A stretch of DNA of 64,000 nucleotides from Zygnema cylindricum (taxonomy: Eukaryota; Streptophyta; Zygnematophyceae; Zygnematales; Zygnemataceae): NCBI GenBank assembly GCA_037447655.1, contig JBBHKE010001182.1, positions 135,272-199,271 on the forward strand. The letters are read 5' to 3'. Under the pieces are notes generated by a model, which made no database searches, was not told the DNA's origin, and worked only from the letters and a program-made list of their open reading frames with translations. Position 1 is the first letter of the stretch, and each line of letters opens with the position of its first letter. The translations under genes were made by a program, and so were the position numbers. Positions 1,061 through 30,453 of the stretch are shown here, in pieces.

Positions 1061-2254
1061 ATGGCTTCCTCTTCAAAGGGGGGCATGGGAAAGATGCAAT
1101 TTTGTTTTTCAGGAATGAAAGACACCATGTCTCTTTCCCATTTTCGTATGCTTTATAATACCGAAATGCGTGACTTGACATTTCTTTATCAATAGCGCTT
1201 TGACCTTAAGGTCGCTTTCTCTCTCCTCGGCCGATACCTTTGGATTTGGCTCTCACTTTATACACACGGAAGTATGAGAGTATTGGTCAAATGACAAAGC
1301 ACTCTCCACCTTTTGCATGACTTTCAACAGTTTCCGACCAAGTAGAAATTCCCTACTAGGTAGTTGTTCCAACAGTATTGGACGTTAATGGCGATGCGCT
1401 ATATCGAGCCATCCTCCAGCCATCCCCGAGATTCCTCGGCAGTATGTTGTGGCTGCCCCTGCGGCAGTTCTAGCTAGATTAATTCTTAATTAAGCTAGTT
1501 CTGCAGGATTAATTCTTTTACGTGACCCGCTATAAGACATGTTCAATCTTCTCCAAGAAAAATACCGATGCAAAATCCATATCAAGTTAGGGACTTGATA
1601 AACTTAAAACGTAGGCTGGGTGAGACTGCTCTTGCTTTACGAGCTAGAATGGAAACCCATCGGGAAGTATTACCGGACTTATGTCGGATGCAGAGGATGT
1701 CCAAAAATTCGTGGGATAGTTTCCTCCTCAATCGAAAATATTCATTCAGACTCATCTCAGTCAAACATACAGGCTGAAATTTACCTTTGAGCAAGCGGTT
1801 GAACATGCGGTTAGGTATGAGATACAATCGTCGTGGTAGGATGCTCACAAAAACTTCGAATCTCAGGGAAACTAATTGACCAATCTCCACCACCTCCGAG
1901 GAACTTGTGGCCTTCTAATAGGCCTATAAGGACGTCCGCCAGGGGAAATTTGCCATTTAATTCCGGAGACCGATTGTGTTTCTGATGTGGAAACACGGGG
2001 CACGATGCCCGCATGTGCCCAGATAAATCGGCCACATGCACCCATTGCAACAAGAAGGGACATTATGTCCACCGTTGCCATGTGAAACACCCTAATTTTT
2101 CTAATCAAAATCAAATTCAGAACGGTGGAATTCCTACCCGTTCGGCCAAGCCAGGAACTCCTTCTTCCGAGACATACAAAAAGGCGACTCCGCCTAAGAT
2201 CCCTCGAAGAGAGAGGGAAAAGGCCGAGTTAGAAGTCATGATGGCCGCCATGAT
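1061..2254 (+). pseudogene. Gypsy-1 gag, 5' part, interrupted by Gypsy-2
   Basis: Remnant of a Ty3/gypsy gag (capsid and nucleocapsid). A likely start is the ATG at 1061, followed by a capsid-like stretch that stops at 1195; the same frame reopens at 1568-1777. A frameshift leads to two tandem CCHC zinc knuckles at 1977-2018 and 2037-2078. The second (CTHCNKKGHYVHRC) is a perfect CX2CX4HX4C. In the first, a TGA stands between the first two cysteines. The frame ends at 2254, where Gypsy-2 begins, and resumes in phase after 16,242, which proves one gag was split. Stops and shifts make it non-functional. Family assignment beyond gypsy-like is not possible from this part. Confidence 0.72.
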
Positions 2255-2536
2255 TGTCGAGCGTGCCCGAGAAACACAAGGGAAGGGCCCGCTGTCCGGA
2301 ATGGCCGGTCTCGGCGTCCTGCAGAGAACCCACCAATGCGAATGATTCCCATAATAATGATAATGCCCACTGCTGACCCCATCTCCCCAATAGGCATGCA
2401 TGATCAGATAGGAGAGGCACAAGGATAGGGAATAGGGATGAGTGCATGGGAAGGCGAAAAGATCTCCTCTCCCCCTTACTTTCCCCATTAAGCCGGAGAA
2501 AGGGGTTAAGTTCTAGGTAATTGGGTCGGTACCCCA
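2255..2536 (-). repeat. Gypsy-2 terminal segment d1
   Basis: About 282 bp, a near-identical direct copy of 3709-3991. On the minus strand it starts TGGGGTACC and ends CTCGACA, the outer 3' end of the element, abutting the TGAT target duplication. It could be the distal part (U5-like) of a composite LTR whose other part is c1. Confidence 0.75.
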
Positions 2537-2541
2537 ATCTA

Positions 2542-3708
2542 TGCTTCATCTACAGGAAGTCCATAGCATTCGTTCCCTTAAAACCCACTGTTTCGATGCC
2601 AGGAAATTGCAGTGTTACTCTGGGAAGTCCCCGCCAAAGCAAAAGAGACTACAAGTGAAGACACAAATGCACTACCACGTGCACATATAAAAATAAATAG
2701 GAATGGTTGTTTCAGATTTAACAATATCACCTTGACCACAGAAATAAAATATATGATGGAAGATATAAAAGATCGGGAAGCGAGCTTAACATACCCTGGC
2801 AATTTACGATGACAATGGGAGAAAGGCGAAATCTCTCCTGATGGCAGTGTAAATAGGTATGGCACTCCTTCAACCCTCGGTGTCCGCAGCTCAGAACCGA
2901 TAAGACTCTTCTCAGTTTCAAACAGCGAAAAATCCAAAAATCACCCAAAGGGACGGCAGTGCCAACCGCCAACCCGAACTATGATTCCCAAAATGGACAA
3001 TTCCAAAACAGAGATGGCAATAGAGTCAAACAACACAAATATTCTCCAAAAGAAGGTTTGTTGGAATTTCTGAGGGTTTTCACAGGAGATTGTACTTGTC
3101 TCCTTCGGCCCCAAGCGCCTTATACATCAAAGTTTGTCCAAAATCAGGTTCAAAAGTTAAACCTACGCTATTAGCCAATGAGCGACCAGCAACGGCAATC
3201 AAACTGACATAAGACAAAATAATGTGTACTACTCTTGGGGCAAAAAGTTGGACCTCTGACCACGGCTAGATCCGCCGCCGGAAGTTGTTATTTCTTCCAC
3301 AGTTTTTAAGACAAAGTCCTAAAAAGACACGGAAGTGCCACGCTTTGAGTTAATGTAATTAATTAACCACTGGTCAGCTGAATCTGAACTGAATTGCTAC
3401 AGACAGCTAACAGCAAAATCTAGATGACAGTCCGGAAGTCTACGTGGCAATCCACAATGTACCCTCCACTAGGGCTGGTGGAAGCTAGTACTAGGTGACG
3501 GGACTGCGATCTTTCAGACGATAGAACTTTGTCGTCCAGCCTCCGTTAGGCACGAAACAAAGTGCGTCTTGTTCAGTAGAGGAAATACCATTATCCTTCT
3601 GGCTGGTTGCTCTCACTTTTCCGTACTCTGAGAACAGTACGGGTAGGAAGAGTACGGAAATCCTCGGTAATATAGAAGTGTGCCTGAAAAGCACTTGAGC
3701 TTAAGAGC
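2542..3708 (-). repeat. Gypsy-2 long terminal repeat segment c1
   Basis: About 1.17 kb, closely similar to 15,064-16,238 in the same orientation, with an obvious 12-bp indel near 3097 and scattered substitutions. Acts as the body of the 3' LTR. On the minus strand it ends GATGAAGCA, followed by 5 bp and segment d1. Its outer start lacks the TGTC seen at the matching end of c2. Open frames inside it are shadows. Confidence 0.8.
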
Positions 3709-3991
3709 TGTCGAGTGTGCCCGAGAAACACAAGGGAAGGGCCCGCTGCCCGGAATGGCCGGTCTCGGCGTCCTGCAAAGAACCCACTAATGCGAATGCT
3801 TCCCATAATAATGATAATGCCCACTGCTGACCCCATCCCTCCCAATAGGCATGCATGATCAGATAGGAGAGGCAAAAAGATAGGGAATAGGGATGAGTGC
3901 ATGGGAAGGCGAAAAGATCTCCCCTCCCCCTTACTTTCCCCATTAAGCCGGAGAAAGGGGTTAAGTTCTAGGTAATCGGGTCGGTACCCCA
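3709..3991 (-). repeat. Gypsy-2 internal copy of the terminal segment, d2
   Basis: Second copy of the 282-bp segment d, directly downstream (minus strand) of the polypurine tract and upstream of c1. Like d1 it begins TGGGG and ends CTCGACA. Its presence both before and after c1, and its absence after c2, is not the usual LTR layout. Confidence 0.75.
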
Positions 3992-4006
3992 ATCTCCCCC
4001 CCTCTT
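3992..4006 (-). other. Polypurine tract of Gypsy-2
   Basis: On the minus strand AAGAGGGGGGGAGAT lies immediately before the TG that opens segment d2. A purine run just inside the 3' LTR is where plus-strand DNA synthesis starts in LTR elements, so it marks an LTR border at 3991/3992. Confidence 0.7.
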
Positions 4007-4310
4007 AGTCAAATGTGACTAAGAAAAATAAATAGTTACCCGCCCAATTCACAGTTCCCGCAGAACCATGGACTAGGGAATGGAGGGCATGGTTCCCATG
4101 AGGAGGGGAGAGAAGAGGGATGCCAGCACTGCCCCCACTGATGGCAGACCAAGATGTATTGCTGCGGGGAGGACAGGTGGCAGGATGATGAATAGGAAGG
4201 AGGATCGGCAAAGTAAGTCAAGTGGAAAGTCGGTTCGTCTTCTAATCCTCGGAGGTGACAAGGGGCCACATTGATTTGATTCTCTTTAATTCTTCGCCCA
4301 TCTTTCCCTC
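4007..4310 (-). other. Gypsy-2 stretch between pol stop and polypurine tract
   Basis: Minus-strand frames after the integrase stop continue for about 200 bp with proline- and serine-rich translations but no recognisable domain. No chromodomain is seen. Probably the decayed end of pol or 3' untranslated sequence. Confidence 0.4.
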
Positions 4311-5757
4311 CTAAGTCAGAACTCCCTTATTTGAAACTTCCACCACTTTCAAGATCACCCGCCCGGCAGAAATGTCAAGCGTGTCCTTTTTCTGTTGCAT
4401 GCGATACACAAAGTCTCCCGGCATAAATCGTCGCTGTCGGGGCACATAATCTTTGCTCCGGCGCTGGGAATACCACAATTGATCCCGGTGTTGTGCCGCT
4501 TGTAAATTCCCCATGGCGAGAGGCATCTGCCGGTGGAAAATTTTGGCACGGTCGGCGATCAGTTTTTCGACAGTTCCCTTGTCATCCATTGCCGGGAGGA
4601 CCACCGCTTGGGCAGAGGCAGCCCCGGGCAGAATGGGATGCCGTCCGAATAAAATGAAGTAAGGGCTGTAGGAGTGAAGAGAAGCCTGTCTGCTGAATCG
4701 GTATCCCATGGCAATCCAAGGCACCCTTTTGTCCCACTCTCCCAAGTCCTCTTCAACTGCATATTTCCGTAGTGACCGCTTCACTGTCTGTACGCACCTT
4801 TCGGCCAAACCGTCGGCTTGGGGGTGGTCGCGACTGGTAAGTCGATGGTCGATGAGGCATTTCTCCAAAAGATTGGTAAATTCTCCGGCGAATTCCGATC
4901 CCTGGTCTGTCAGAACCTCTGCTGGCGCCCCAAACTGTGACAGGACTCTCTGCAGAAAGGCGTCGGCAATGGACTTGGACTCCTTTCGGGGCAGGACCAC
5001 AAGCTCTATCCATTTTGAGAAATGTTCAATCATGACCAGAACGAAACGATTCCCACGTCTGCTGGTCGGAAGAGGTCCCAAAAGATCCAAAGACCACCGA
5101 TAAAACATTCCCCTGATGGGAAGAGAATGGAGCTCAGTTCCGCCCTTTTTGTCAAAAGCTGCCTTAACTCGATCGCAGGAAGAGCAAGTCTGTACAATTC
5201 GGTTGACTTGGGCCCGCAACCCGTGCCACCAGTAAGAGCCTGTAACCAAGGAAGTGGTTCGCTTCTGTCCGAAGTGTCCACATTGTTTATGGAGATTGGT
5301 AATCAGAGTTTCTCGATCTGAGGGAGGAGGAACCACTTTCCTAGTACCGTCTGTCCATTTCCGGAGGAGCACTCCTCGGTCCCATTCATATGCCGCCATC
5401 CTGGTCTGAACTCGGGATAATTGTATTCCAGCCAAGTGGGAAAGAGGGGATCCCTGCTGAATAGATTGGAGAGCTTCGGAGTCATTCCAGATGTCTTTCC
5501 GTCCGGCTCCTATGGGTGCCTGCCCCTCAACATCTGCTGCAAAAGTTGACAATTCCCCCCCAGATGGAAGAAGCCAAATGAAGGCGGAGGATGCTCGAAT
5601 GAGTCCCAAACTGATTTCCGAATCCTCGTTGTGACGAGCCCCGGTGGAATCCAGGGTAGAAGGATCGGGGTTTCGGCTCAGTCCGTCGGCATTCCCATGA
5701 ATTTCCCCTGCCCGGTGGACAATGCTGAAATCATATTCCTGCAGGATAAGAAACCAA
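4311..5757 (-). pseudogene. Gypsy-2 pol: RNase H end and integrase
   Basis: Integrase inserts the reverse-transcribed element into chromosomal DNA. The open frame 5609-4311 holds an HHCC zinc-binding region (His107, His112, Cys142, Cys145 counted from its first Met). It is followed by a D,D-35-E core: Asp175 in SLDLLGPLP, Asp235 in LTDQGSEF and Glu270 in GLAERCVQ, all present. Between 5757 and 5610 the same frame reads the usual gypsy RNase H tail (EYDFSIVHRAGEIHGNADGL). This frame differs from the upstream RT frame, so a frameshift lies near 5758-5765. Integrase itself is uninterrupted over about 430 codons; the break is only at its junction with RNase H. Confidence 0.9.
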
Positions 5758-7100
5758 TCAGGCGAGTTTGCCGGTCAACTTACTATTTTCCATGATCCAC
5801 TTCAAGGGTTGGTGATCGGTGATTAACGTGAAATGGACCCCGTACAAATAAGGTCTGAAATGCTGGATGGCCCAAACCGCGGCAAGAAGCTCCCAATGAT
5901 AACTGCTATAATTTCCCTCACCTCGGTTATTGCTCCGGCTGGCGTAAGCCACCACATACTCGGCACCTGCGTCGTCAACTTGAGCTAAAACAGCTCCCTG
6001 TCCAAACCTACTCCAATCAGTGTAAAGGAGGAAAGGCCTTTGGTGATCAGGCATCCGGAGCAGTGGGTGCTGCTTCAGGGCATCCTTCAAGAACTGGAAA
6101 GCGATCTGCTGTTCCTCGGCCCACAGCCATTCTTGATCTTTCCGTAATAGCTTATTTAGGGGCTGGGCGTGACTACTGAACTCAGGAATAAACGTGCGAT
6201 AGTAGTTGACCAGGCCAAGAAAGGTGCGCAAGGCAGAAATGTCCTGCGGGGGAGGAAGAGCGTCCAAGGCCGCAACTTTAACCATATGGGGACCCACTGT
6301 CCCAGGAGTCACCTCATGTCCGAGGTAAATGATTTTCTGCACCCCAAAAATACCCTTGCCCGGGTGACATTTCAAGCCCGCTACTTGAAGGGCCCGGAGG
6401 ACGATCTGGATGTGCTCTAGATGTTCCTCAAAAGTTTTTCAGAATATTATCACATCGTCGATGTAGCACCGGGCAAAATCGATTCCTCGGAGCGCTTCGT
6501 CCATGGCCCGTTGGAACTTGGTTGGTGCATTCTTCAGTCCGAATGGCATATAAAGCCACTCATAAAGTCTGGATCCGGCCCAGAATGCCGTTCTCTCCCG
6601 GTGTTTTGGTTCCATGGCAATTTGGTGGAAACCATTCTTCATGTCCTGTGTGGAGAAAATAGTGGCCCCAGCAAGGGAGTCGAATATCTCTCCCGGAGTT
6701 GGCATTGGGTACCGGTCAGGGATGGTGGCCGTGTTCAACATGTGGTAGTCCCCACACATTCGGAAGTCCACAGTTTTCCCGGTTGAATCCTTCTTAGGAG
6801 GGAGGACTGTGGGGGAAGCAAACCCATGGAGTCCGGTACTTTCATGAACCAACCTTGCGTCCACCAAAGTTTGAACCTTTGCAGTAATAAACTCTTTTTC
6901 TTTGAAGCTGAGAGGATATTGTTTCTGCCAGACCGTTGAGGTTTCGTCGATCAAATCTATCCGAAAGGGGGTTCCTTGGTAGATTCCGACATCTGTTTCG
7001 GACCATGAGAAAACCTGAGTGTTTCTAGCCAAGAGTTCTGTTAGCTGTCTTTTCTGCTGAGGGTCCAGCTGCTCCCCTAGAGTCCAGTCCATTTTTTCCG
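5758..7100 (-). pseudogene. Gypsy-2 pol: reverse transcriptase and RNase H
   Basis: Copies element RNA into DNA and removes the RNA strand. Gypsy RT blocks are clear: FRMCGDYHMLN, ATIFSTQDMKNGFHQI, MPFGLKNAPTKFQRAMDEAL, and the catalytic YIDD at 6451-6462. A TGA at 6436-6438, two residues past the YIDDVI core, replaces the serine usual there. The frame then continues into the RT thumb and RNase H (FLLYTDWSRFGQGAVLAQ with the first catalytic Asp; HWELLAAVWAI with Glu; LITDHQPLKW with Asp). It shares one frame with the methyltransferase and protease upstream, so the intact ancestor was a single polyprotein. Apart from the TGA and the shift near 5758, the domain is well preserved. Confidence 0.92.
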
Positions 7101-7369
7101 GCTCAACCGCAGCCCAAGCTTCTGGTGGTTTTCCCCAGAGGTTGATGTTGAATTCTAGCCCAACCTGTGGATCTGCCTTTATTCCTCCGGATAATACTTT
7201 ACTGCTGACAACTTCCGCTAAGCTGTCTCCTTCTGAGCTCCTGTTCCCCCCCACTGAAGGAACTCTCGGGTGTAGAATTTTTCTCTTTTCTCTCCCCCCC
7301 TCAAGCAACAAAGTTGCTTGCCTGGACAGTAACTGTGGAGCTTGAAGGTAATTTCTGCGGGAATCTGGA

Positions 7370-8550
7370 GCGTGGAGACTAGAATAGGCAAGAGCATGTT
7401 TGACAACCCATGTAATGGCATTTAAATCCATGCTTTGCCCTATGAGGCTGCACCGCTGTAGGTCTGAAATACCTGGTGCTGCCGTGGTGTCCGGTCGAAA
7501 TCCCATTGCCTTTTCTCGTTCCATTATTGTTGGTGCTGTCCAAAGTCTTTCCTTGCTGTCATAAATCATTCCAGCTGCTCCTTTCCTGTAGGCGTGACTG
7601 TAAGGAAAAGATACCAACGTGGGGAGTGCTTGACGTGGGAATCCAGGGATATTGCATCGGAAGAAAGGAGTTCGATCCGGTTTTGTTACAAGTGTCGCCA
7701 TTCTCCCTTTCCCAAGTATTTGCTGTACTGAAATCAGGGGGTCGGTGGTGTGTTTTTCCAACAGTTGCCGGAGGACTGAATGAGGGATCATATTGGTCCA
7801 ATATGCCCGGAGTCTGTGCGCTCGAGATCCCATTTGAGCAGCGTCAAAAACCAAGGGAGCTCCCAGGATACAGGTTACTTGATTCCAACTTTCTGCAACC
7901 TGCTTTCGTTTATCATCCCCCGGGTGGACATTCTTCAAAATGTACCCTACTGGTGTGTCTTGGAGCTGCTGAATCCACGATATCAATGTAATCATTTGAT
8001 GGAAGGTTCCACTTCGTTGGTCCTGATGCCCTCTTCCTTGTCCTGCTAGGGAGTATCCCTTACAAGGCCATCCCTCCACAACCAGATCTACTCTTCCCAG
8101 ACTAGCTAAATGAGGTTCCATTATATTATCCACATTCTGGGGAAGACTCCGGTGAGCTTAGGAGATGAAAGACACTAGAATCTGTTGAGGATATAAGCGG
8201 TGCAGTTGATGTAGGCGGTGTTCGCTGACAGCTCGCGCTTCCGGTGAAATTTCCAATGCTGTGTATGACTCCACTCCATACCCTGCCTTTAAAACTGCTT
8301 CCAAATCAGAATTGATTCCCGAAAATAAAGATAAAACCCGAAGTCCGGAGTTTGGGACTGTCAATGACACCACTTGTCGATTGAAGTCCCCGCTCCCAGT
8401 CTTGGTTTGGAAAACATCTGACTGGATCGTCGAATCTGTTTTCGGTAATTGTAAGGCTGAGAAGGTTTTATCCACTCCGCGTCGGAGTTTCGCCACCTGC
8501 AATAATCTGTCTGTGTATTCCCTTTCCCACCGCTTGGAAATCGGGAATTG
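7370..8550 (-). pseudogene. C5-cytosine DNA methyltransferase domain inside Gypsy-2 pol
   Basis: Would transfer methyl from S-adenosylmethionine to carbon 5 of cytosine in DNA. Motif I (VLSLFSGINSDLEAVLKAG, from about 8343) and the motif II acidic strand (ALEISPEA) bind the cofactor. Motif IV has the catalytic cysteine in GWPCKGYSLAG (Cys codon 8062-8064). The motif VI ENV reads KNV (7927-7935). Motif VIII is GSRAHRLRAYW (RLR near 7807-7815). Motifs IX-X appear as ALPTLVSFPYSHAYR, MEREKAMGF and LIGQSMDLNAITWV. The GSRAHR and ERE..MGF blocks are most like the DNMT3/DRM type. It lies in frame between protease and RT. A TAG (8551-8553) precedes it and a TAA (8158-8160) splits motif II from motif IV, so this copy is inactive unless read through. 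Lys for Glu in motif VI may be a further lesion. Confidence 0.88.
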
Positions 8551-9556
8551 CTAGATGTCTTCGGCAATATCTGTGGAACTGTCAAACAGCTCCGCCGGAG
8601 AGGTGGTAGAATACACGGGGTAACAGCCAGACACTGGAACATTTGTCTTTCCCCGGTTCCATAAATCCAAAGGAACCACAACTTTGGTTCCTTCGGGATT
8701 TCCTGGGTCCCGAACTGTACATTGTTCCTTCCAAACACTCAAACTCATAATCATGCGGGTCCAAGTTGCCATTCCCAACAGAATTTCAAACTGATTCCCT
8801 TCTACCACTAAGAAACGAAGTCCAATTTTCACCTTCTGTCCCGCATCATCTGCGAATTCAATGTCCATGGCTTTGATGATTCCATGGACTGGTTGATTGC
8901 CGCTGCTGACTGTGCTCAAGCAGATGTTACTCGGGCAGATCTGGGGTCTGAGTTCTTCCGGCATTTTTCTGCAATGCAGAAGTAGTAATAAGATTGGGAA
9001 GGGCTCCGGTATCAACCACAGCGTCTTGATACCCGCCGTACCCATTCAGTTTGAAATTCCCGGTCCGGTTCAGAATGAGTGCTACGGACAAAGTTTTGTA
9101 GTCCCTATCCGCCATAGGGGTCTTAGGATCGGAAGACCAGTATACCGCCGTGGGTGGTGTCACCCTGTCGACTTTGTCTTTTCCAGAATGGATCTCTTCT
9201 CCCAGGGCTTGAATGAGGATCTCTTCGGGCAGATTATGGGAGGAAGCAAGGGTCTTGACATGGGTTAAGGCATAAGGCATCAAATGCCGGACCAGCATAA
9301 CAGCAGGCTTGGAGGAATGGAGCGGAGCTTTTGGGGACGATGTAGGCAAAATTTGTTCCTGATCCGGTTCTATCTCTTCGTCGCCATCAGTTTCAGAACC
9401 GGAATCGGGTACGGGTGGAGGTTTTGGTGCATCCTCGTCCGAGCGTTTGGCCATAAACCGCTCAAACCAATCCTGAGTGCTCTGTTTGTCCTCTTCCTGT
9501 GATCTTGTCTCCGGCTGCAGTTTCTCTTTCCTGTAATTTTCGAAACCGGGAGGCAA
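8551..9556 (-). pseudogene. Gypsy-2 aspartic protease region
   Basis: Retropepsin that matures the polyprotein. The upstream frame (9556-8927) has an acidic, proline-rich leader and then the active site AVVDTGALPNLIT. A one-base slip in the A/T run near 8962 moves into the frame of 9045-8551, which carries the second half (FLVVEGNQFEILLGMATW, the typical ILG-like block). That second frame is the one shared with the methyltransferase and RT. The shift could be damage; a programmed shift inside the protease would be unusual. Confidence 0.82.
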
Positions 9557-10461
9557 TTTAGGTTAAGTAGGAAGAGAATGGGGTTGAGTGGGCTTGATCC
9601 CAAAGCCTATGTCACTGTTCAGAATGACTGCCCTGGGCGTGAAAGACAAAGGCCCGGTGGCCTTCCGGTTGTGGTCCTTTAGACCCATTTTCCGCCTGTC
9701 TCTCCTTTAATCCGAGGTTGAGGAGCGAAGTTGTCTACGACCATCTCCCACTCCAACATTCCAGGCTCGTGCAGAAAACTGCTTGCATGGTGGGCATTTA
9801 AGGGTTCCAAATCCCAACCCATCATATCGTCTTCGTTAGCCCCCGATGTACTTTGAAGCTCAAGCTCCGCTAGCTTTTGTAGTAACTTTTGCTTCTGTCT
9901 CTGGAGTCTTTGCGCTGCCGTAAGAGGAGCAGGCCGGTAAGTCGACCCCAAACGAAGTGCAGCCAATTCTGCAGCCATGGCAGCCATCTGCTGACTCTGT
10001 TGTTGGATTATTATCTCCGATCTAAGTCTGGCTGGAGCAGTCATTAATTGTTCTGTTGTCATTGGTGTAGACAGCACTGGGCGCTCCCAAGGTTAAAAGA
10101 GTTGTAGGGGAAGAGGGTTAACGGCAGTCTCTCCTCCTCCCGTGAACAGAGCAAATTGCATCATTTCCTTCGGGATCCCGTTCTTCCGAAAACATTGCCC
10201 CTCCTTGCGCCCCATAAAACCACAGGCCTCGCATTTGTGACCCTCGGTGGTATACTTGCTCCGAATCTCGTTGGAGATCTGAGCATCGTCAAACTTGGGC
10301 AGTTTGATTTGCCGTTGTTGGGACTGGGACATTTTCGAAGTTTCGCTCCGTGGAGTGGGTCGGTAATTGTTCTTAGTGACCGGTGTTCTCTCCCCCCCCC
10401 TAGCTCTTTTGAGTCGTTCTTCATGCTGCTTCTGGTTCCTTTTGAACGTTCTACCTCCCAT
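9557..10461 (-). pseudogene. Gypsy-2 gag 3' part with degenerate knuckle
   Basis: Two same-frame open stretches, 10,461-10,093 and 10,077-9,679, separated by one stop. The first is basic and ends with CEACGFMGRKEGQC, which has the spacing of a CCHC knuckle but Arg in place of His. The second is rich in Ala, Gln and Leu (likely helical or coiled) and then acidic. Position between capsid/knuckle and protease suggests the C-terminal part of gag or a gag-pol linker. No named family is recognised. Confidence 0.55.
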
Positions 10462-10478
10462 TCTTTCAACTTGAGGGC

Positions 10479-11483
10479 TAGCTCCGGTTTGAGTGTCCTA
10501 CTGCAGCGTTTCCATCCATGTCCAGGTTGTTGACAATTTAGGCAATTGTACAGGATCACCCGATCGTCGGCCCCAATTGCAGGTTCTGGCCGGCTGTCCA
10601 CAACTTGCTTCCCTTTAAGCTTCCGAAAAGCTTGAAGTTCCGCTTGTTCTTCCCCACTTAAGGAAGTTTCCCCGGCGAATCCTGAAAAATTCGCTCTTGC
10701 CTTGCCGGTCACGGCTTTTTCTCTCGCGTCACTGTGAACCAAGTGGTCGTATAACTTCATGGCCACCAGGGATATGTCCTTGGCCAAGGGATTTATGTCC
10801 TGGATGGCCTGTCTTGCGATCCAGTTATCCAAGGCAGTCTGCCCTGTCGGTCCGAAGGAATTACGGACAGCAATGAAATACTTGGTCGCCATTGCGGGAA
10901 GGTCAATGGTAGACAGCTTAGTCTTCTGACAAAGACTAGAGAGGCGGTTAAAAAATGTCTGAGGCGTCTCATTCTTCAAACACCGGAATTCCGTGAATTC
11001 CTTGATGGCTGATTCATTCCTCTCGGTGTAGAGGAGTCTCCAGATGTTTAGAAGAGTGGTGCAAAGGGTGGGGTTTGCCACCATACGAGTTCCAGCCCGA
11101 GCTGCCTGAATTGCTTGCAACTGGTTAACATAGGCCCTCCCTTGGGCCTGCAATTTCATATCATCGGTGAAGGTAGCTGTTAAAGGGGTCGGCGTTGCGG
11201 CAGCCAAATCTGCCTTCGCTCGTAAAACTTCTGCATCCATGGCCGGATCTGAGATTTTGATGCTTGGAGCCATCAAGAGAGGTTGACGCTCCTTATAATC
11301 TGCCAAAGCCCCTCCAAAGAGGTAGTTGACCATCATGGGGAAGAGAGTTGTTTCGAAGTCGTCCGGAATAGCTCCTCCCCTGTACTTATTGATTTCCGAT
11401 TGAGTGAAAGATTTCCACAACAACTCGAAATCTGAGAAAGCGATCCCTGAGCTGTCCCCTGTAAATATTCGAATATCCCCCAT
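10479..11483 (-). pseudogene. Gypsy-2 gag capsid and CCHC knuckle, copy B
   Basis: Begins at the ATG (MGDIRIFTGD) at 11,483. An alpha-helical capsid-like region of about 290 residues follows, including NIWRLLYTERNESAIKEF and TPQTFFNRLSSLCQKTKL. It ends with a perfect knuckle, CLNCQQPGHGWKRC, near 10,515-10,556. Past 10,479 the frame runs on into unrelated sequence. It is the coding-distal copy of a tandem duplication, and only this copy is contiguous with the downstream gag and protease sequence. Confidence 0.82.
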
Positions 11484-11766
11484 TTCTTTCTCTTCTTCCG
11501 CTGGTTGGGTGAACTAGGAAAAGGAAAGACTGGTGGGACTAACGAACTGTGCCGGCGAAGTAACCCCTTTGTCCTCTTCTTCGGGACCGGAACCGCCTTC
11601 TCCTCCGGTAGGAGATGCTGTTCTGCTAGGCGCGGATACTCCTTCCGCAGAGGAAGTACCAACCCCTGAAAGGATGGTTGGAGGAAGGGTATTCCTCACG
11701 AGAAGAATTCCTCCCCCCCGGTGAGCAGAGGGTATCTGCGTCTGAAGACTTGTCTGGCCTGGTGTC

Positions 11767-12771
11767 TAGCTCCGGTTTGAGTGTCCTACTGCAGCGTTTC
11801 CATCCATGTCCAGGTTGTTGACAATTTAGGCAATTGTACAGGATCACCCGATCGTCGGCCCCAATTGCAGGTTCTGGCCGGCTGTCCACAACTTGCTTCC
11901 CTTTAAGCTTCCGAAAAGCTTGAAGTTCCGCTTGTTCTTCCCCACTTAAGGAAGTTTCCCCGGCGAATCCTGAAAAATTTGCTCTTGCCTTGCCGGTCAC
12001 GGCTTTTTCTCTCGCGTCACTGTGAACAAAGTGGTCGTATAACTTCATGGCCACCAGGGATATGTCCTTGGCCAAGGGATTTATGTCCTGGATGGCCTGT
12101 CTTGCGATCGAGTTATCCAAGGCAGTCTGCCCTGTCGGTCCGAAGGAATTACGGACAGCAATGAAATACTTGGTCGCCATTGCGGGAAGGTCAATGGTAG
12201 ACAGCTTAGTCTTCTGACAAAGACTAGAGAGGCGGTTAAAAAGTGTCTGAGGCGTCTCATTCTTCAAACACCGGAATTCCGTGAATTCCTTGATGGCTGA
12301 TTCATTCCTCTCGGTGTAGAGGAGTCTCCAGATGTTTAGAAGAGTGGTGCAAAGAGTGGGGTTTGCCACCATACGAGTTCCAGCCCGAGCTGCCTGAATT
12401 GCTTGCAACTGGTTAACATAGGCCCTCCCTTGGGCCTGCAATTTCATATCATCGGTGAAGGTAGCTGTTACAAGGGTCGGCGCTGCGGCAGCCAAATCTG
12501 CCTCCGCTCGTAAAACTTCTGCATCCATGGCCGGATCTGAGATTTTGATGCTTGGAGCCATCAAGAGAGGTTGACGCTCCTTATAATCTGCCAAAGCCCC
12601 TCCAAAGAGGTAGTTGACCATCATGGGGAAGAGAGTTGTTTCGAAGTCGTCCGGAATAGCTCCTCCCCTGTACTTATTGATTTCTGATTGAGTGAAAGAT
12701 TTCCACAACAACTTGAAATCTGAGAAAGCGATCCCTGAGCTGTCCCCTGTAAATATTCGAATATCCCCCAT
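11767..12771 (-). pseudogene. Gypsy-2 gag capsid and CCHC knuckle, copy A
   Basis: Near-identical to copy B, from MGDIRIFTGD at 12,771 through the same CCHC knuckle. It then crosses the duplication junction, adds about 45 foreign residues and stops at 11,626. Amino-acid differences from copy B are few (for example Lys for Glu near the start, Ser for Trp in the DNxIARQ stretch), so the duplication is recent. Translated alone it would give a capsid-knuckle protein not joined to protease. Confidence 0.82.
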
Positions 12772-12983
12772 TTCTTTCTCTTCTTCCGCTAGTTGGGTGA
12801 ACTAGGAAAAGGAAAGACCGGTGGGACTAACGAACAGTGCCGGCGAAATAACCCCTTTGTCCTCTTCTTCGGGACCGGAACCGCCTTCTCCTCCGGTAGG
12901 AGATGCTGTTCTGCTAGGCGCGGATACTCCTTCCACAGAGGAAGTACCAACCCCTGAAAGGATGGTTGGAGGAAGGGTATTCC

Positions 12984-14862
12984 TCACGAGAAGAATTCCT
13001 GGCCCCCGGTGAGCAGAGGGTATCTGCGTCTGAAGACTTGTCTGGCCTGGTGTCGCAGAAGGAAGGGCCCACTACCCTTCGTCCACTCCTCGATTCCACG
13101 GGGATACCTTTCGTCCTGACGAACTGTCTCCTCTGAAGGGATGTGGATCCGAGGTTTTTTCAGAGGTTGATCTCCGGGCAGAGATGGAGAAAAAGACGAC
13201 GAAGGCCCGTTATGAGGAGAAGGAGTTTGTCTTCGGAAAGGAGTCTGTTTTCGGGGCCGTCTTCGGGAAGTTTCAGGAGGTGGAGTTCCGGAACTGGAGG
13301 AGGGGGGACGCCTGTGAGGAGGGGAGTATACGTCGTACTTATAGGGCAGATTCAGCGGACCTGGGGACCCACGGTCGGCTCCAGTAAGAGAAACTAAAGG
13401 AGATGGAGAGGAGATGGGATTGTCCCGGGGTTCTGCTACCGAAGCCTGAGAGTGGGAAGTAGGAGGATGAGGAGGGAAAAGAGGATGATCAGGGGAAAGT
13501 CTGGGTGGAGGAAAAGGAGGTGTAGACGGTCTCAAGGGGATATGAATTCTTTCGTCCGGTTGTAACTCCACTAAGGCCTCAACAGCTTCAGAAACCTCCA
13601 CCGAAACATAAGTAGGCTCTCCCCGCGGAGCCGCTTCGAGTTCAGACGGTAAATCTGCACCCAAACCCCCAATATTAGGTCTTATGTCTGTCCCCTCTTC
13701 CCGCTGAAGAGGAGGTTCCCGACCAATCTCCGAAAGAGGAGCCTGGGGTGGAGCTCCGGGCGGGGTTTCCGCTACAGGGGTTGGAGGGATACTGAGGATC
13801 CCACTGGTCCTCCGCCTAGCTTCCCGGATGAGATTCAATTCCTGCTCCCACAACTTTCTCCGTTCTTCCTCCAATGCTTCCGAATCTACTGTAACGGGTC
13901 CAGTCCCCGCCGTAGCCGATCCCTGAGATTTTAAAATTTCCACTAGTTCCTTAGCTTTTTCCACTACTCCGGTCAGATCTGCTATCCCTGCTTCTAGAAT
14001 TTCTGGATCTGTAGGCCTGGCTTGAAACAATCCCTCGGACAACTCTTCTGGTTTGGTTTACGGAACCTGTGGGTCAGTGGGTTCGGGTCGCCAGAACCCT
14101 CCATCAGGGCGGACCCGGGGTGCTGGAGGGGTAGATCTCTCGGTGGAGACTGGCACTGGTGTTGGGGAAGGTTCTTCCTTGGGAATAGATGCAAATCTAC
14201 CCTTGCTATCCCTGTGGTCAAACTTCTTCCCCCTCCCCGGCTCTGGAGCCCCGCTATTGCTGCCATCTGTTCTCCTACGAGACCTCAAAGTTGGGCGCCC
14301 TCGGAACGGTCGGCTTGCTGCAGTGTCTTGGGAAGAAGATGGAGGAGGGCGAGAAGGAGGAGCCCTCCTAGGCTTTCCTGCGACTGAGCCCTCTCGGCTG
14401 CCCACCACCCTGCTGGTTTGCGAGGTGATGTGGTCTCACACCCTTCCCTTGCCCAGTTCGAGAGTTCCTTGAAGTAAGGATCATTCAAGCTGGAGTCAAT
14501 TTGAATTTAAATACAGGAATCTTGATGGTGTAGGCAGACCTCGGAAGGGGACCCAAAAGGGGCTCCCGCTGAGCTTGCCTCTTTGGCCTGGCACGGGGTA
14601 TCACTCGATTTCTTTCTTGAGCATGTGCTCTGGACTCCTTTCTTTCCGCGGCAAAGGTTCTGGAGGCCTCCGCCAAGGAGGGAAAATGTTCAGGAGTGAG
14701 GCAGGGAGGAGATGGAGGCGAAGTTGGTGGTTCGGGTGATTTTGGAGGAGTCTCAGCCCTAACCCGCTCAAGCATCATCCCCTGGAGAAACCGCTCTATG
14801 TAGGCAGGCGAGGTGAAGAGGACGGATTCTTCGAGAACCTGTGACTCTTCTTCTAATACCAC
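12984..14862 (-). pseudogene. Gypsy-2 gag N-terminal region, proline/serine rich
   Basis: Open frames 14,862-14,485, 14,408-14,058 and 14,042-12,984 lie head to tail in two frames before the capsid. The last and longest (352 codons) begins with a helical stretch (EEERRKLWEQELNLIREARR). It becomes strongly Pro/Ser/Arg rich (RPSTPPFPPPRLSPDHPLF) and ends just inside the duplicated unit. Such low-complexity N-terminal segments occur in some gypsy gags; no domain is recognised. Whether the breaks are frameshifts in one ancestral frame or separate small ORFs cannot be settled here. Confidence 0.55.
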
Positions 14863-15063
14863 CGCTTCTTGATTCGCCCGTTCTTCCGGCCTGGCACCGG
14901 AGAGATTCTTATATTAAGCTTCACCTCAACCCATGATGACGAATGTCTCGAAAGAAGAATTAACGACAGGAAACAAATCTCGCTTCCGCCAAGAGAGCTT
15001 CTAAAGTCAAAAAGCTCCTATCCCCTCCAATCCGAAGGAGACAGGTTGGGCTTTTGAGTACTG
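14863..15063 (-). other. Gypsy-2 leader between 5' repeat and first ORF
   Basis: About 200 bp with no convincing primer-binding site directly after segment c2 on the minus strand (it starts CAGTACTCAAAAG). No tRNA 3'-end complement beginning TGG is evident at the border. This fits loss of the region that would have followed c2, including segment d. Confidence 0.45.
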
Positions 15064-16238
15064 TGCTTCATCCACAAGAAGTCTATAGCATTCGTTCCCT
15101 TAAAACCCACTGTTTCGATGCCATGAAATTGCAGTTTTAATCCAGGAAGTCCCCGCCAAAGCAAAAGAGACTACAAGTGAAGACACAAATGCATTACCAC
15201 GTGGACATATAAAAATAAATAGGAATGGTTGTTTCAGATTTAACAATATCACCTTGACCACAGAAATAAAATATATGATGGAAGATATAAAAGATGGCGA
15301 AGAGAGCTTAACATACCCCGACAATTTACGATGACAATGGGAGAAAGGCGAAATCTCTCCTGATGGCAGTGTAAATAGGTATGGCACTCCTTCAACCCTC
15401 GGTGTCCGCAGCTCAGAACGGACTAGACTCTTCTCAGTTTCAAACAGCGAAAAATCCAAAAATTACCCAAAGGGACGGCAGTGCCAACCGCCAACCCGAA
15501 CTATGATTCCCAAAATGGACAATTCCAAAACAGAGATGGCAATAGAGTCAAACAACACAAAGATTCTCCAAAGAAGGTTTGTTGGAATTTCTGAGGGTTT
15601 TCACAGGAGACTGTACTGAAAAGCAACCTGTCTCCTTCGGCCCCAAGCGCCTTATACATCAAAGTTTGTCCAAAATCAGGTTCAAAAGTTAAACCTACGC
15701 TATTAGCCAATGAGCGACCAGCAACGGCAATCAAACTGACATAAGACAAAATAATGTGTACTACTCTTGGGGCAAAAAGTTGGACCTCTGACCACGGCTA
15801 GATCCGCCGCCGGAAGTTGTTATTTCTTCCACAGTTTTTAAGACAAAGTCCTAAAAAGACACGGAAGTGCCACGCTTTGAGTTAATGTAATTAATTAACC
15901 ACTGGTCAGCTGAATCTGAACTGAATTGCTACAGACAGCTAACAGCAAAATCTAGATGACAGTCCGGAAGTCTACGTGGCAATCCACAATGTACCCTCCA
16001 CTAGGGCTGGTGGAAGCTAGTACTAGGTGACGGGACTGCGATCTTTCAGACGATAGAACTTTGTCGTCCAGCCTCCGTTAGGCACGAAACAAAGTGCGTC
16101 TTGTTCAGTAAAGGAAATACCATAATCCTTCTGGCTGGTTGCGCTCACTTTTCCGTACTCTGAGAATAGTACGGGTAGAAAGAGTACGGAAATCCTCGGT
16201 AATATAGAAGTGTGCCAGAAAAGCACTTGAGCTTGACA
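15064..16238 (-). repeat. Gypsy-2 5' long terminal repeat segment c2
   Basis: About 1.17 kb, closely similar to c1 (2542-3708). On the minus strand it opens with TGTCAAGCTC, the true 5' end of the element next to the TGAT target duplication, and ends GATGAAGCA. Unlike c1 it is not followed by segment d. Confidence 0.82.
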
Positions 16239-17245
16239 TGATGAAAGAGCAATTTGCTGCCTTCATGGCTGAAATGAAACCCCAGTTCACGGGGATGACA
16301 AAGACAATCCTCCACACGCCATCGTTGGTTGGTAGAATCCTCTTAGATTCCACTGTTCCACAACAGGCAACAAGTTTGGATAAGGGATCCCCTAATCAAA
16401 ATCGATACGGTAAATTACAAAATTCCCGTATTCCACTTTTTTTCGAGAAAGAATCTCTCTATCCTCTACCAAATACAGCTTCCTCTATTGTGGTTAAAGC
16501 TCTCACCATTCTTGATAGTACCATACATGATGCCTATCGAGTCAACAAACGACTAAACATCCTTCTTACCATGATTGATGAAGCACCTAGGGCTTCTCCC
16601 TTTCCTAATGAGGTTCGTAAAGCCTCTCCCTTTGTTGACGAGTTCGCTGCAGCCGCCCCTTTGAGGGCGTTGCAGCTGAACCGTAGTCTTTCAGTTATTC
16701 AACTAGTTATTGCGGATGAGCGCCGTGACCTTGATCCTCACATCAGTTTCCTGGAAAATTTCCGAATATCTTTCTCAGTTAATGGTCTTGCTCCTTCTCT
16801 CTCTCTCATAGACATTGGAGCCAAACCCGTGATCCTCGGATCTTGATTTGCGCTCAAGCTTGGTCTAACAACAAACAAGCTCGAAGCCACGTCTACTTGG
16901 CTTCTTACTTCAGCTGATACCACGGAGCCGGTGCTTTGAATTACCAAGGACCGACTTGTCTTTCGGTTTCACAACGGAACTGAAAGTGAGTCCGTGGTGG
17001 TTTCGGCACATTTCGCTTTTGCTCTCCCTGCATTTTCCAGTATAGACCTTAGGGAAGACAATGGCGACTGTCTTTTCTCAGAAAGGATCCTTCGAGGCAC
17101 CCCACCATTGCGAGATAGTTGTAGTGAGCCCAGTTTTCTCCTCGACTCTCTTTGTCTATTGGATACCATCGACACCAAGGTCTCTCCACACATTCTCCAT
17201 GTGGTAGATGGCTATTCCAATGGGATGTTGAGTTTGTAGAGGGGT
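16239..17245 (+). pseudogene. Gypsy-1 gag 3' part and protease
   Basis: Continues the gag frame interrupted at 2254. It is open from the ATG codon at 16,238-16,240 to a stop at 16,846 and then reads on in the same frame with stops. Around 16,780-16,830 the phrase LSLIDIGAKPVILGS matches a retropepsin active site, with Ile in place of the usual Thr/Ser of DTGA. It is followed by FRFHNGTE and VVVSAHFAF, typical of the second half of a gypsy-type protease. The frame is lost near 17,240 before any RT motif, so RT, RNase H and integrase have been deleted or lie beyond recognition. Confidence 0.7.
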
Positions 17246-25500: not shown

Positions 25501-26830
25501 AACCAAGCTTCGGTTAAAGGAGGGGCAAACCGGTGGAACTCCGAGAGGAAAGAAAAATGCCCTTGTTAGACAGGTACATGAGGTGGAATCCGAAGACAAG
25601 GACGATAAGCTCCTATTAGATAAGCAGTTGGAGGCACAAAACGAGGTCGAAATTCCACGAAAGCAGAAATGTGTTTTTGGTGGACTGAAAGGTGACGCAG
25701 GCTGAATTAAAGATTGAGGTGCCTCCATGCACATGTGTAAGGATAAACACGTGTTCACTAAGATAAAAAAGATTCCCACCGTAGAGATAGAGTACGACGA
25801 TGGGAGGATAGTCACTACTACTCTTGTAAGATCGGTAGATCTGAAAGTTTTAGTATAAGAAGAGACATCCATAGTTACATTCTCCGATGTATTGTTTATT
25901 CCGAAGTTGAACAAAAACCTCATCTCTACGTCTGTATTAGATGATAAGGGTTTTTATACTAGCACTAGGAAAGGAGTCTTTACTACAAGTTTTGAGGAGG
26001 AAGTTTATTTCACTGTTTTTAAAGGTAGCCAAGGGATGTTTAGGCTGAATTTAAGCAATGAAAAGAAGAAACTTTATTGTGCTGGTGATCATGATTTATT
26101 GATATGGCATAAGAGGCCTAGGCATGTGAATCCAAATAAGTTAAGAGAGATGAAGAGGATGGGAGTGGTTGAAGGGATTCAATTCGGTGAGAGTGGGAAT
26201 CTAAGTGATTGAAGTGGATGTGCTCAACTTAAAGCACACAGGTTACCTTTTCCCAACACAACTTCCTATAAGGGAGACAAAATTCTAGCATTAGTACACA
26301 TAGATATTTGGGGACCTACCAAAGTGCCCTTACCAGGGGAGAAGAGATTTATTAGGACTATCACTAATGATAGGTCACGGTATTCCCGGGTGTAATTTTT
26401 GAAAACCAAGTCACAAGCTCAGGAATGTTTTAGACAATTTAAAGCATGGAGCAAAAAACTCCATGAAACTCCAATCAAGAGAGTAAAGAGTGACAATGGT
26501 GGAGAGTATACTTCTAACCAATTTGAGGATTTTATGAGGGAAGATGGAGTCCATCACCAAAAGACAGTTCCAAAATACCCAGAACAAAATGGGGTAGCTG
26601 AAATGTTAAATAGGACACCTAGTGATAGTGCTAGAAGTATAATGTCAGATAAATAGATAGGAAAAAGATTTTGGGCAGAAGTAATGAACTGTGCTAATTA
26701 CCTTTTAAATAGAGTTCTTACTTCAGTTATAAAAAGTCAAACACCTTAAGAGAGATGGACCGGTCTAAAATCAGACATATCTCACTTAAAGGTTTTCGCC
26801 AGTCAAGTATTCAATCTAGATACAGATCGG
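25501..26830 (+). pseudogene. Copia-1 protease and integrase
   Basis: The protease active site near 25,705-25,725 is damaged by stops; the GASMHMCKDK that follows is intact. The pre-integrase zinc region keeps IWHKR and a CAQLKAHRLPF-like end. Integrase retains its three acidic residues in HIDIWGP, KSDNGGEYTS and PEQNGVAE. At least five stop codons interrupt the frame, including one at 26,392-26,397. Confidence 0.83.
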
Positions 26831-26835
26831 TCTAA

Positions 26836-28890
26836 TTGGAGCTAGATCCAGCAAGAAAACTAGGATACTTATTTGGATATGATGAGGATGTAAAAGGATA
26901 CAGAGTTTATGATTTGAAAAGGGAAGATATAATCTTAGTAAAGCATCTAGTAGTTATCGATGAAGGAAAGTCTGTGGATCCCTTCAAGTATACAAAGTCA
27001 GTAAAAATCAGATTTGCGACAGAGAATTCCGATGACTTTGAGCTTCCTAACTATCGAGGTTTTAAAGAAGATGACATTCTTGCAAGTGCAAATCAGACCG
27101 AAAAGGACTCGGCTGCGGAAACTCCAGTGACAACTCTACCCAAAGCAGATGACGTAGTGGAAATTGATTCAGAATTAAGGGACAGGGGAGAAGCCGAGAT
27201 TGTTCGAAAGAACCCACGAGAAACATCTATTCTGGCCAAAGATTTAGAGGGGGGAAGGAGAAGTAGCAAAAGGTTACAACAAAAACAGGTTAATAACAAG
27301 GTAACAAAACTATCTCATCAAGATGAACCTTAGACTTATGGGGAGGCGATAACATGTCTAGAAAAGATTCGGTGGAAGACAACCATCAATGATGAGATGG
27401 CCTCAATTATGGCAGCCGATACTTAGGAGCAGGTGGATTGTCCACCTAACCGAAAATCAATCGATTGTAAGTGGGTGTTCAAATTAAAATTGAACCCGGA
27501 TAACACCATTGAGCGTTACAAAGCTCAACTAGAGGCAAAAGGATTTACACAAAAAGAAGGAATCGACTGCGAGGAAACCTTTGCCCCAATCGTCTGATTT
27601 CCCTCCGTCCGCATACTTCTCACTCTAGCAATAGCGAAAGACATGGAGGTGCACCAGATGGACATCAACACAACCTTTTAGCATGGATTATTGGAAGAGG
27701 AGATCTTCATGCGACAACCCGAAAGATTTGTTGAGGAAGGAGAGGAGAGTAAGGTATGCCGACTAAATAAATCTCTTTATGGCTTGGAACAGGCTCCTCG
27801 ACAGTGGAATAAGAAGCTTGATGAGTTTCTTACTGGTTTGGGATATATCCGGATCATCCCAAATCACTCAATCTGTATTTTTGAAGATGAGGAAGGTGTT
27901 ATATTTATTACAATTTATGTTGATGATTTGCTTGCTTTAAGTAAATAAATAGAAAAAAGAAATAAACTCAAAACCGATCTTAAGGGGAGATTTGAAATGA
28001 AAGATATGGGGGAAGCAAAAAATATTTTGGGAATTCAAGTAGAAAGATACCAAGAAAGAAAGATTTTAATGTTGACTCAAAAGAAAGCAATAAGGAACAT
28101 GTTGGAAAAATTTCAGATGGATAAAGCTGATAGTTATACATTTCCAATGGAATTAAAAAAGGGAGTGAGGGGAGTGAGGAAGAAGGAGTCATAGTCTTAG
28201 ACGAGGAATTAAGTCCTGAAGAACAAAAGTTCATGTAGACTATTCCTTACGGGCAAGTAGTGGGAAGCCTAATCTATTTTATGAATTCTACCCGTCCAGA
28301 TTTAGCTGCATCTGTAGGTGTGCTGAGTAAAAGTCTAAATGCTCCCACTTAGAGGGATTGGGAGGTAGCTAAGAGAGTCCTTAGATATTTGATAGGAACT
28401 AGGAATCTATGACTGCATTTGGGTGGGGAGAATACTGACATCGCTACTAGGAGTGATGCCTGTTATGGTGATGCTCGGATGAGGGGATGTACTTCTGGAT
28501 ATGTATTATATGTGGGTGATGGGGCTTTTTGTTGGAGTAGCAAACATCAAAAGGTTATTGCTCAGTCCACTATGGAGGCAAAAATATGGCCTCTTGCTCT
28601 GTGATAAAAAAATTGATGTGGGTCAAGTCTTTGCTAGGTGAGCTAAGTTACCTTAAGAGTGGTGTGTCGATAAATTTTGTGATAATCAAGCAGCAATCGC
28701 TATTTCTCCCAATCCTAAGCCAAAAACATGGACATTAGAATTAACTTTGTTGGAGAGAAAGTAGAAAACAAAATAACCAGTTTAGAGTACTGACGAGATA
28801 TCTAGATGGTAGCAGATAGGATGACCAAACTTGTACCTTCCCATAAGCTAATTTTTTTGTAGGGAGAAGTGTGGTATGAAATTAAATATT
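26836..28890 (+). pseudogene. Copia-1 reverse transcriptase and RNase H
   Basis: A linker with DDFELPNYRG leads into copia RT ([35 protein letters not shown], catalytic YVDDLLALSK near 27,917-27,940). RNase H follows (RSDACYGDARMRGCTSGYVL) and becomes badly broken after about 28,190. There are stops in nearly every 200-bp interval. Closest relative in the window is Copia-3. Confidence 0.87.
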
Positions 28891-28909
28891 AACTAGAAAA
28901 TAACGGGAG

Positions 28910-29956
28910 TGTAGAAATTGATGATTCTTTTAGTATTTTCTAGGTCTAAAATGAAATGCAGAAAATAAGCCGTGGCAGTCTGTCTCTAACTCTTCTCTCC
29001 AACTCCCACACTTGTTCTAGTCACTGAGAAGTTGAAAAGGAAGCTAGAGCCATGGCTACCTATGATATCCAAAGATTTACGCGTAATAGATTAGTTAATT
29101 TGCGGGTAGTAGAATAGTTGATATACTAAAAGTAGAGTTGTTGGATCCAGGATTTGATCCTAGTACTTGCGGTCTATTAAAGCTGTCGGTAGCCGGTTGA
29201 CTTATCTATATGGTTTAGTACTAGTGTTAAGTGATGTAGGATTTAATAATTATATAAACGTTACCACGTAGGCTAATTCATTTAACGACGATTATATACG
29301 GAAAACATAGAGTCAGTTATGAAAAGTACAGATTATGAGTACTAAAAATGCATTTGTTTCGATAGCGAAAAAAATTCCGCGCAAGTATTTATGATGATTT
29401 CGAGTGACATCCACATTCTATCGGACGACCAGAAAGAATGCCGAGATCGCGAAAGAGGATTTTGGCTGTTTGTGGTTCGGATGACACGTGGCACCATGAC
29501 ATTGGATTTCGGCCACTCCAAAGATTACAGAAACGAATCCGGATATGACATGTGTTGACTTTTTGGCCATGTCGTACAATGATCGTACAAAAAGTATACT
29601 GGCATTGTACCTTTCTTTACGGCACAGTAAAGTGATTGGCGACGTACGACACTTGATAGAGTTTTAGAGAGAGATAGGACTCAGAAAAATTTGGTAGATA
29701 AGACGCTCTCTCCCAAAGAGCTTTTGAACAAAAGGACAACTTTGACCCTACATAGCCTATTGCTCGAGGAGCAAACTCAGAGATTCTTTTTGCTATCGAC
29801 TAAGGGGAGTCTTGCCTTCACAAGGATGAAGGTGGTTAGAGGCTTTATCAGCCAGGGTGGCAGATATTTTTGCTGAAAAACAAAGGGGTCAGGGTTATCC
29901 CAGAGTCTTCTAGCAAGTTGTCCATTCTGAGTGCCTATGGAGGTCTCAGAGTTGCA
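28910..29956 (+). repeat. Copia-1 3' LTR
   Basis: Begins TGTAGAAATT just after the purine run AACGGGAG and ends GAGTTGCA at 29,956. The tRNA-like segment recurs at about 29,140-29,200. Confidence 0.85.
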
Positions 29957-30453
29957 ATCTCAATCTTGTAGGGGAGGTAGTTAGGAGAGAGATATATCAC
30001 TAAAAATAGAGACAATACAGATGGAGAAATTGAAACTGAAAAGTTTACGTATACGACCTTGGAAAAAATGGCTAAACCTTGCAAAGAATTGTTCAATACA
30101 GATAAGACGATGGTGAGGAAAAGACCAAGAGTGATGGAGAGGGTAGTAATTAGGGAGAGGTTCTTGGCCTCATCCTCATGTTTTTTAAGATACCTACAAA
30201 ACCCAGACAACCCATTTCAACTCAGTAAAATCATTTTTAAAATTGGACCATAAATTACTCTAGATAGCATTGGCTGTACTGATCAAGAAAGATAAACAAT
30301 GATATTATTTAGTTTAGCTCTATGTGGAATAGATTTTTTTATAAAACCCATTTTAATAGAAGTGTCGCGAATGGCAGGAATTGACAAGAATACTGATGAA
30401 ATTAGTTCAATATACACCTATTGCCGCTTAGATCATACTCATAGGAAACGTAC
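29957..30453. other. Stretch between Copia-1 and Copia-2, unassigned
   Basis: A plus-strand reading with few stops (about 30,020-30,510) gives phrases such as YLQNPDNPFQLSK and VSRMAGIDKNTDEISS, which look protein-like but match no family I recognise. It could be a host-gene or element fragment into which Copia-1 or Copia-2 inserted. Evidence is weak. Confidence 0.3.

Follow-up and report, generated by a model that had tools for sequence, protein, structure and literature searches.

What a cytosine DNA methyltransferase (MTase) is doing in the polyprotein of a retrotransposon is the question raised by a 64,000-nucleotide stretch of the Zygnema cylindricum genome (GenBank assembly GCA_037447655.1, contig JBBHKE010001182.1, positions 135,272 to 199,271), referred to here as the window. 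The initial annotation, concerned with window positions 5758–9556, had proposed a Gypsy element with an MTase between protease and reverse transcriptase (RT), and this was borne out; de Mendoza and colleagues have described elements of this kind. The element extends well beyond the span first noted, being a Gypsy-type retrotransposon of 13,984 bp on the minus strand (2255–16238) that contains, in order, a Gag region, protease, an in-frame TAG, the MTase, RT, RNase H, integrase, and a PHD-like tail. It is likely, in our judgment, to be a decayed Ty3/Gypsy-type copy of the KnitGypsy-Dnmt3 kind, for which we propose readthrough of the TAG, methylation of the complementary DNA (cDNA), cutting at a joint between repeats, and targeting by a PHD finger. 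The element kind is already known, and its split ends, probable leaky stop, and PHD tail are little described; these features and the target duplications go beyond what the initial annotation had noticed.

The methyltransferase and its copies in the genome

The assembly searched comprised 352.8 Mb in 2689 contigs. A DNA_methylase search scored 123 places among 782 candidates; intact copies, which the initial annotation had suggested looking for, were present, several of the scored places lying in open frames of more than 1000 aa, with the longest at 2395 aa. Thirty loci were fetched, and retro-element MTase queries matched 29 of them, on which ground a copy of a host gene was ruled out as the source. 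The exception, L007, contains a chromomethylase-like host exon (L007:1498–1797) whose best PDB matches (3e-29) we take to be maize chromomethylase; this exon and the relatives in Closterium and Klebsormidium fit a streptophyte algal host. Among the 29 retro-element loci, a protease was found upstream in 24 and RT downstream in 25 within the fetched flanks, collinear where present. By identity to the window MTase, these loci fell into three families, A (~70%, 16 loci), B (~50%, 7 loci), and C (~35%, 6 loci), and the domain order is common to all three diverged families. In the family C copy C1344, a single 2395-aa frame runs through protease, MTase, RT, RNase H, integrase, and PHD finger. The DNMT3-class MTase lies inside the Pol frame and contains no introns, as expected of KnitGypsy-Dnmt3-like elements.

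A query with the MTase-RT segment of the window returned 83 rows, which belong to 76 scored copies if the window is counted; this number is a lower bound (3898 candidates). Identities to the window segment were 62–93%, the window itself excepted. The MTase was present in 76/76 scored copies and at least 40 RT residues in 74/76; in the remaining two (C665 and C1042), the match ends before RT or just inside it. Copies lacking the MTase at this position, which the initial annotation had named as an observation that would speak against the fusion, were thus not seen, though the query includes the MTase and so favours copies that carry it, and MTase-less close relatives may exist. Within L031–L050 and the window, a single RT (39% identity, L045) was without a neighbouring MTase.

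The MTase was classified from an alignment of 11 domains from the genome together with the relatives P0002 and P0003 (13 rows). Motifs IV, VI, VIII, and X were kept in all rows, and motif I in every row except P0002, which begins further downstream. A profile search against the PDB placed DNMT3A first (7e-25), followed by DNMT3C (3.5e-23) and DNMT3B (1.3e-22), with weaker matches to HhaI (1.2e-10), DRM2 (4.2e-9), a tRNA MTase and DNMT2 (~2e-7), and DNMT1 (0.25). A fold search with a model of the relative P0003, whose mean predicted local distance difference test score was 62, gave DNMT3-family proteins in all 50 of the 50 matches listed. The MTase tree was built with no host DNMT3 taken in, and the RT tree was too weak to separate one MTase capture from several.

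The pooled ratios of nonsynonymous to synonymous substitution (dN/dS), calculated as sums over correctable pairs, were 0.13 (69 of 91 pairs), 0.34 (20 of 21), and 0.08 (5 of 15) for the MTase in families A, B, and C, and 0.075 (56 pairs), 0.28 (10), and 0.12 (3) for RT. Pairs with the window had dS values above 2.4, near saturation, and lower the pooled family A value; the unsaturated family A pairs shown gave 0.11 to 0.25. Judged from these substitution patterns, the MTase is under purifying selection, and the constraint is clear. A chance insertion of the MTase, or an accident affecting a single dead element, would suit the state of the window copy, which is dead, but this reading is already refuted by the other copies and is scarcely credible, because the 76 scored copies, the order shared by three families, the long open frames, the selection, and the relatives in Closterium all stand against it.

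A different possibility is that the MTase is kept for another role, such as RNA methylation, work on the host genome, or a non-catalytic structural part. Motif IV reads PC in families A and B, as in most C5-MTases, whereas family C, P0002 of Closterium, and P0003 read EC (L015, L016, L025, L029, P0002, and P0003), and this departure speaks for another role. In addition, the 2018 discussion raises RNA as a substrate for the DNMTs of long interspersed nuclear elements (PMC5890265, text passages). Conversely, the nearest class is DNMT3 and not DNMT2, the catalytic cysteine and the motif VI glutamate are invariant in all 13 rows, and retrotransposon DNMTs can methylate CG de novo, according to the same passages (PMC5890265). 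We therefore regard another role as rather unlikely, and favour a DNA-methylating enzyme.

The window copy itself is decayed. The initial annotation had assigned protease, MTase, RT, and RNase H to one shared frame; this held for the MTase, RT, and RNase H, which occupy one minus-strand frame across open reading frames (ORFs) 8158–8550, 6439–8157, and 5758–6438. It did not hold for the protease, which is split over two frames, with the DTG half in ORF 8927–9562 and the second half in ORF 8551–9045. The integrase and the PHD-like tail lie in further shifted frames, so that frame breaks occur in the protease, near 5758–5774, and near 4311–4326. ORF 6439–8157 matched PF00145 (2.5e-5) and RVT_1 (1.9e-16), ORF 8158–8550, which carries motif I, had no Pfam match, and the PHD-like tail had no Pfam match of its own; Asp_protease_2 was weak and under the Pfam cut-off in relatives. 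Of the stops that had been taken as breaks, the one at 8158 and the third, which lies at 6439–6441 and not at 6436, are private to the window copy, because other copies are open there, and these two stops and the several frame breaks are decay. The MTase motifs that had been described were recovered in order in open relatives for I, IV, VI, VIII, and X, whereas a motif VI residue is changed in the window copy, so that the window's own MTase is probably inactive.

Split repeats, element ends, and target duplications

Ordinary long terminal repeats (LTRs) were ruled out, because no identical LTRs occur at both ends and an A-coding-B-A-B arrangement is found instead. The layout was judged in 11 copies with both sides fetched, the window included, and A1-coding-B1-A2-B2 was observed in six of them (the window, C1374, C895, C1100, C1344, and C2526, the last with more diverged repeats). 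Among the others, C544a and C1920 showed A-coding-B only, the fetched sequence of C1974 ended inside A2, C1407 had a B-A-B arrangement in which A2 was shortened and A1 was not found, and none of the layout was seen in C544b. Two further copies were available as small pieces only, of which C449 fits the split layout and C412 gave no A or B match. The A-coding-B copies (L033/L034 and L037/L038) had no inner repeat and no target duplication, and may be recombination products or the result of another insertion route.

The element ends are TGTC ... GACA (TG...CA), and the TGTCA start fits TGTNR, a terminus of Gypsy and Ginger elements (PMC2836005). An exact 4-bp match was found outside A1 and B2 in three of the six testable copies (window ATCA, C895 AAGT, and C1344 TTGG), the chance of at least three exact duplications among six being ~1e-6. 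At the inner B-A joint, GACAGCTGTC (GACA-GC-TGTC) was present in 7/12 copies scanned, that of the window being decayed. The A and B pairs were about equally diverged in four of five copies, with 0 and 0 in C1344; in the window, the Kimura two-parameter distances were 0.028 for the A pair and 0.036 for the B pair. This equality indicates that the layout was made at insertion.

The same arrangement might instead have arisen later, if ordinary LTR copies or tandem elements recombined with one another. Several copies without the layout or without duplications, and C1374, which looks recombined, are in keeping with such an origin. We nevertheless consider it improbable, since three diverged families have the same layout with TG...CA ends and exact duplications in half of the testable copies, since the two repeat pairs diverged equally, and since the Klebsormidium nitens layout is printed as identical (PMC5890265, text passages).

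The conserved TAG and the PHD finger

The initial annotation had also counted the stop at 8551 as a break in the frame, and this was not supported. The start of the MTase segment was located in all but one of the 23 loci of families A and B, and the codon preceding it was TAG in 21/22 and TAA in one (L017), so that the TAG at 8551–8553 is not a lesion of the window copy. The TAG was followed by CAATT in 20/22 loci and by CAATTC in 19/22, the window alike, and TAGCAATT was invariant in 12 rows selected from families A and B. Readthrough of the tobacco mosaic virus (TMV) UAG in plants requires CAR YYA after the stop, as described in the text seen of PMC2754532. Going by the conserved context, the TAG is probably a programmed leaky stop of families A and B, in a TMV-like setting. 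Readthrough candidates are mentioned among rice gypsy elements in the same text (PMC2754532), so that leaky stops in Gypsy elements have a precedent.

Internal stops in families A to C (L001–L030 and the window) were of all three kinds, and 21/39 fit a C-to-T change on either strand, a pattern that methylation-driven decay would leave. These stops bear on the alternative that Gag-protease simply ends at the TAG, with separate downstream initiation, or that the host reads TAG as an amino acid throughout. TAG is frequent as an internal stop in the copies, as this alternative would have it; on the other side are the presence of all three stop kinds, the share compatible with C-to-T decay, the lack of a stop at this place in family C, and the conservation of the bases after TAG across families A and B. 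Such an explanation thus appears unlikely, and a leaky stop is preferred.

The intact frames of families A and C encode an integrase with an H2C2 zinc finger, an rve core, and a C-terminal PHD finger, the latter scored by Pfam at 2.5e-10 in family C. No chromodomain, a chromovirus trait, was found at the integrase C-terminus, where families A and C have the PHD finger, and no phage-integrase (tyrosine recombinase) domain was found in the proteins scanned, in which rve was found. The solved structures closest to the family C finger are those of PHF12, lid, BAZ2B, WSTF, and PHF21A, several of which read unmodified H3K4. Among the best 120 of 205 relatives of the window integrase, the top one was a K. 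nitens protein with a PHD finger (55% identity over half of the query), and the lower-ranked named ones included proteins from Calypogeia, Closterium, Riccia, and Haematococcus.

Known relatives and a proposed route of insertion

The closest described system is KnitGypsy-Dnmt3 of K. nitens (de Mendoza et al. 2018, PMC5890265), which, in the text passages available, has Gypsy domains, a DNMT3-class MTase in the Pol frame, DIRS-like A-coding-B-A-B repeats, and purifying selection. Because all four features are found here, the element is filed with this kind; the host and the families differ. K. nitens is stated in these passages to have fewer copies than Symbiodinium, and at least 76 were scored here. 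The leaky stop, the target duplications with a palindromic joint, the PHD finger, and the second MTase position were not found in the passages on KnitGypsy-Dnmt3, although its figures may show them. SymbioDIRS-Dnmt3 and DIRS/PAT elements likewise have A-coding-B-A-B, and SymbioDIRS-Dnmt3 also joins a DNMT3 with RT (same text); both use a tyrosine recombinase, in contrast to the rve domain, TG...CA ends, and 4-bp duplications of the window element. Ty3/Gypsy and Ginger elements share the Gypsy-type integrase and TGTNR ends; Ginger1 has 4-bp duplications, and one of its listed families has a transposase with a PHD (PMC2836005, as far as its text was available). Unlike ordinary Ty3/Gypsy and Ginger elements, the window element has split repeats in place of LTRs at both ends and contains an MTase. 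In the literature passages available, split repeats with a DDE integrase were found only in the 2018 legend, and a PHD integrase joined to a DNMT was not found.

Relatives in Closterium sp. NIES-53/54 comprised 18 further proteins related to P0001, of which the MTase profile matched 16. The Gag-Pol proteins (P0001 and P0004–P0021) likewise have the MTase within the Gag-Pol protein, ~38% identical in the MTase; they are known here as protein sequences. The exact domain order, which the initial annotation had considered possibly new, is not unique to this lineage, as P0009 shows protease-MTase-RT and P0005, P0010, P0017, and P0020 show MTase-RT. In four of the 120 integrase relatives listed (P0062, P0063, P0077, and P0086), the protein opens with the tail of this same MTase, followed by integrase and a PHD finger, and P0003, inspected by eye, has the MTase directly before integrase, like P0062. 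Since the MTase stands before RT in some relatives and before integrase in others, it occupies two places in Pol. MTase-bearing Gypsy elements are therefore no Klebsormidium oddity, being numerous and diverse in this genome and having Closterium relatives.

We propose that leaky reading of the TAG would yield a minority Gag-Pol product, by which the MTase would enter the particle alongside RT and integrase. Newly made double-stranded cDNA would there be methylated de novo by this enzyme, probably at CG, and copies would arrive already methylated. The self-methylation of new copies that the initial annotation had put forward would fit this picture, and methylation of cDNA by a retrotransposon DNMT was already proposed in 2018 (PMC5890265, text passages). 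Integrase may cut the GACA-GC-TGTC joint in a cDNA that is circular or has B and A joined in some other way. Such a cut would account for an integrated form that starts with A, finishes with B, and retains one joint internally. The PHD finger may steer insertion through reading of the H3 tail. Candidate benefits of methylated arrival are passing as host DNA, protection of the cDNA, and self-restraint. A stronger version, which we put forward tentatively and regard as possible but doubtful, is that the element has an integration route of its own, in which B-A-joined cDNA, methylated by the DNMT3 domain packaged with it, is opened at the GACA-GC-TGTC palindrome by a DDE integrase with a PHD finger specific for unmodified H3K4, and copies are born methylated in chosen chromatin. 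If true, one polyprotein would rebuild the logic of DNMT3, namely H3 reading and DNA methylation. Split repeats accompanied by target duplications allow the action of a DDE integrase on a joined, circle-like substrate to be put to the test, and the pairing of MTase and PHD finger opens to experiment the question of why methylation of its own DNA would serve a transposon.

Several observations weigh against the proposed explanation. Five of the 11 copies lack the full layout, some being rearranged or incompletely fetched, and C1374 has an extra B and ~3.8 kb within it. Three of the six testable copies have no exact 4-bp duplication (C1100 and C449 agree in three of four bases and C1374 in one), and neither of the two A-coding-B copies has a target duplication. 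The sixth base after the TAG does not fit CAR YYA, and a TAG before the MTase is lacking in family C. The PHD finger of family A scores 0.0026 (18.2 bits), below the 24-bit Pfam cut-off. As for the enzyme, EC replaces PC in motif IV of family C, Closterium, and P0003, constraint on the MTase is somewhat weaker than that on RT in families A and B, and CpG depletion in the copies is only moderate.

Table 1. Coordinates of the features of the element in the window
Feature	Position	Strand	Remark
3'-side target duplication, ATCA in element orientation	2251–2254	.	identical 4 bases adjoin the other end
B2 repeat, element 3' end, terminates GACA	2255–2540	-	96% identity with B1
A2 repeat, first bases decayed	2539–3706	-	97% identity with A1 over 1175 columns
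2-base spacer between A2 and B1	3707–3708		
B1 repeat	3709–3995	-	
Hairpin and G-run just before B1, polypurine-tract-like	3996–4024	-	similar feature in 5/5 copies printed, three families
PHD-like integrase tail, frame-shifted, degenerate	4036–4326	-	68% identity over 96 aa to family A tail
Integrase: H2C2 zinc finger and rve DDE core	4311–5774	-	PF17921 1.2e-15, PF00665 6e-13
RT end and RNase H	5758–6438	-	PF17919 2.7e-33, PF17917 (RT_RNaseH) 1.8e-30
RT core, crossed by stop 6439–6441	6154–6816	-	PF00078 (RVT_1) 1.9e-16 in 6439–8157; tblastn with family RT, 94%
DNMT3-class MTase, motifs I to X, bounds approximate, crossed by stop 8158–8160	7390–8345	-	PF00145, alignment of relatives, PDB profile
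In-frame TAG before MTase, context TAG CAA TTC; probable readthrough site	8551–8553	-	TAG in 21/22 family A/B loci
Aspartic protease, two frames (ORFs 8551–9045 and 8927–9562)	8551–9562	-	DTG by eye
Gag region, broken	9679–14057	-	tandem duplication 10478–11766 / 11766–13054
A1 repeat, element 5' end, begins TGTC	15061–16238	-	
5'-side target duplication, ATCA in element orientation	16239–16242	.	

The tandem duplication in the Gag region (10478–13054) has a unit of ~1.29 kb with 98.6% identity. Elsewhere in the window, several broken Copia-like pol frames were recognized by eye in the open reading frames of 26800–43000 and 59500–63200. A weak MTase match (29%) was also obtained in an 81-kb IMG/VR contig (L055:3001–3378), the single match among viral contigs.

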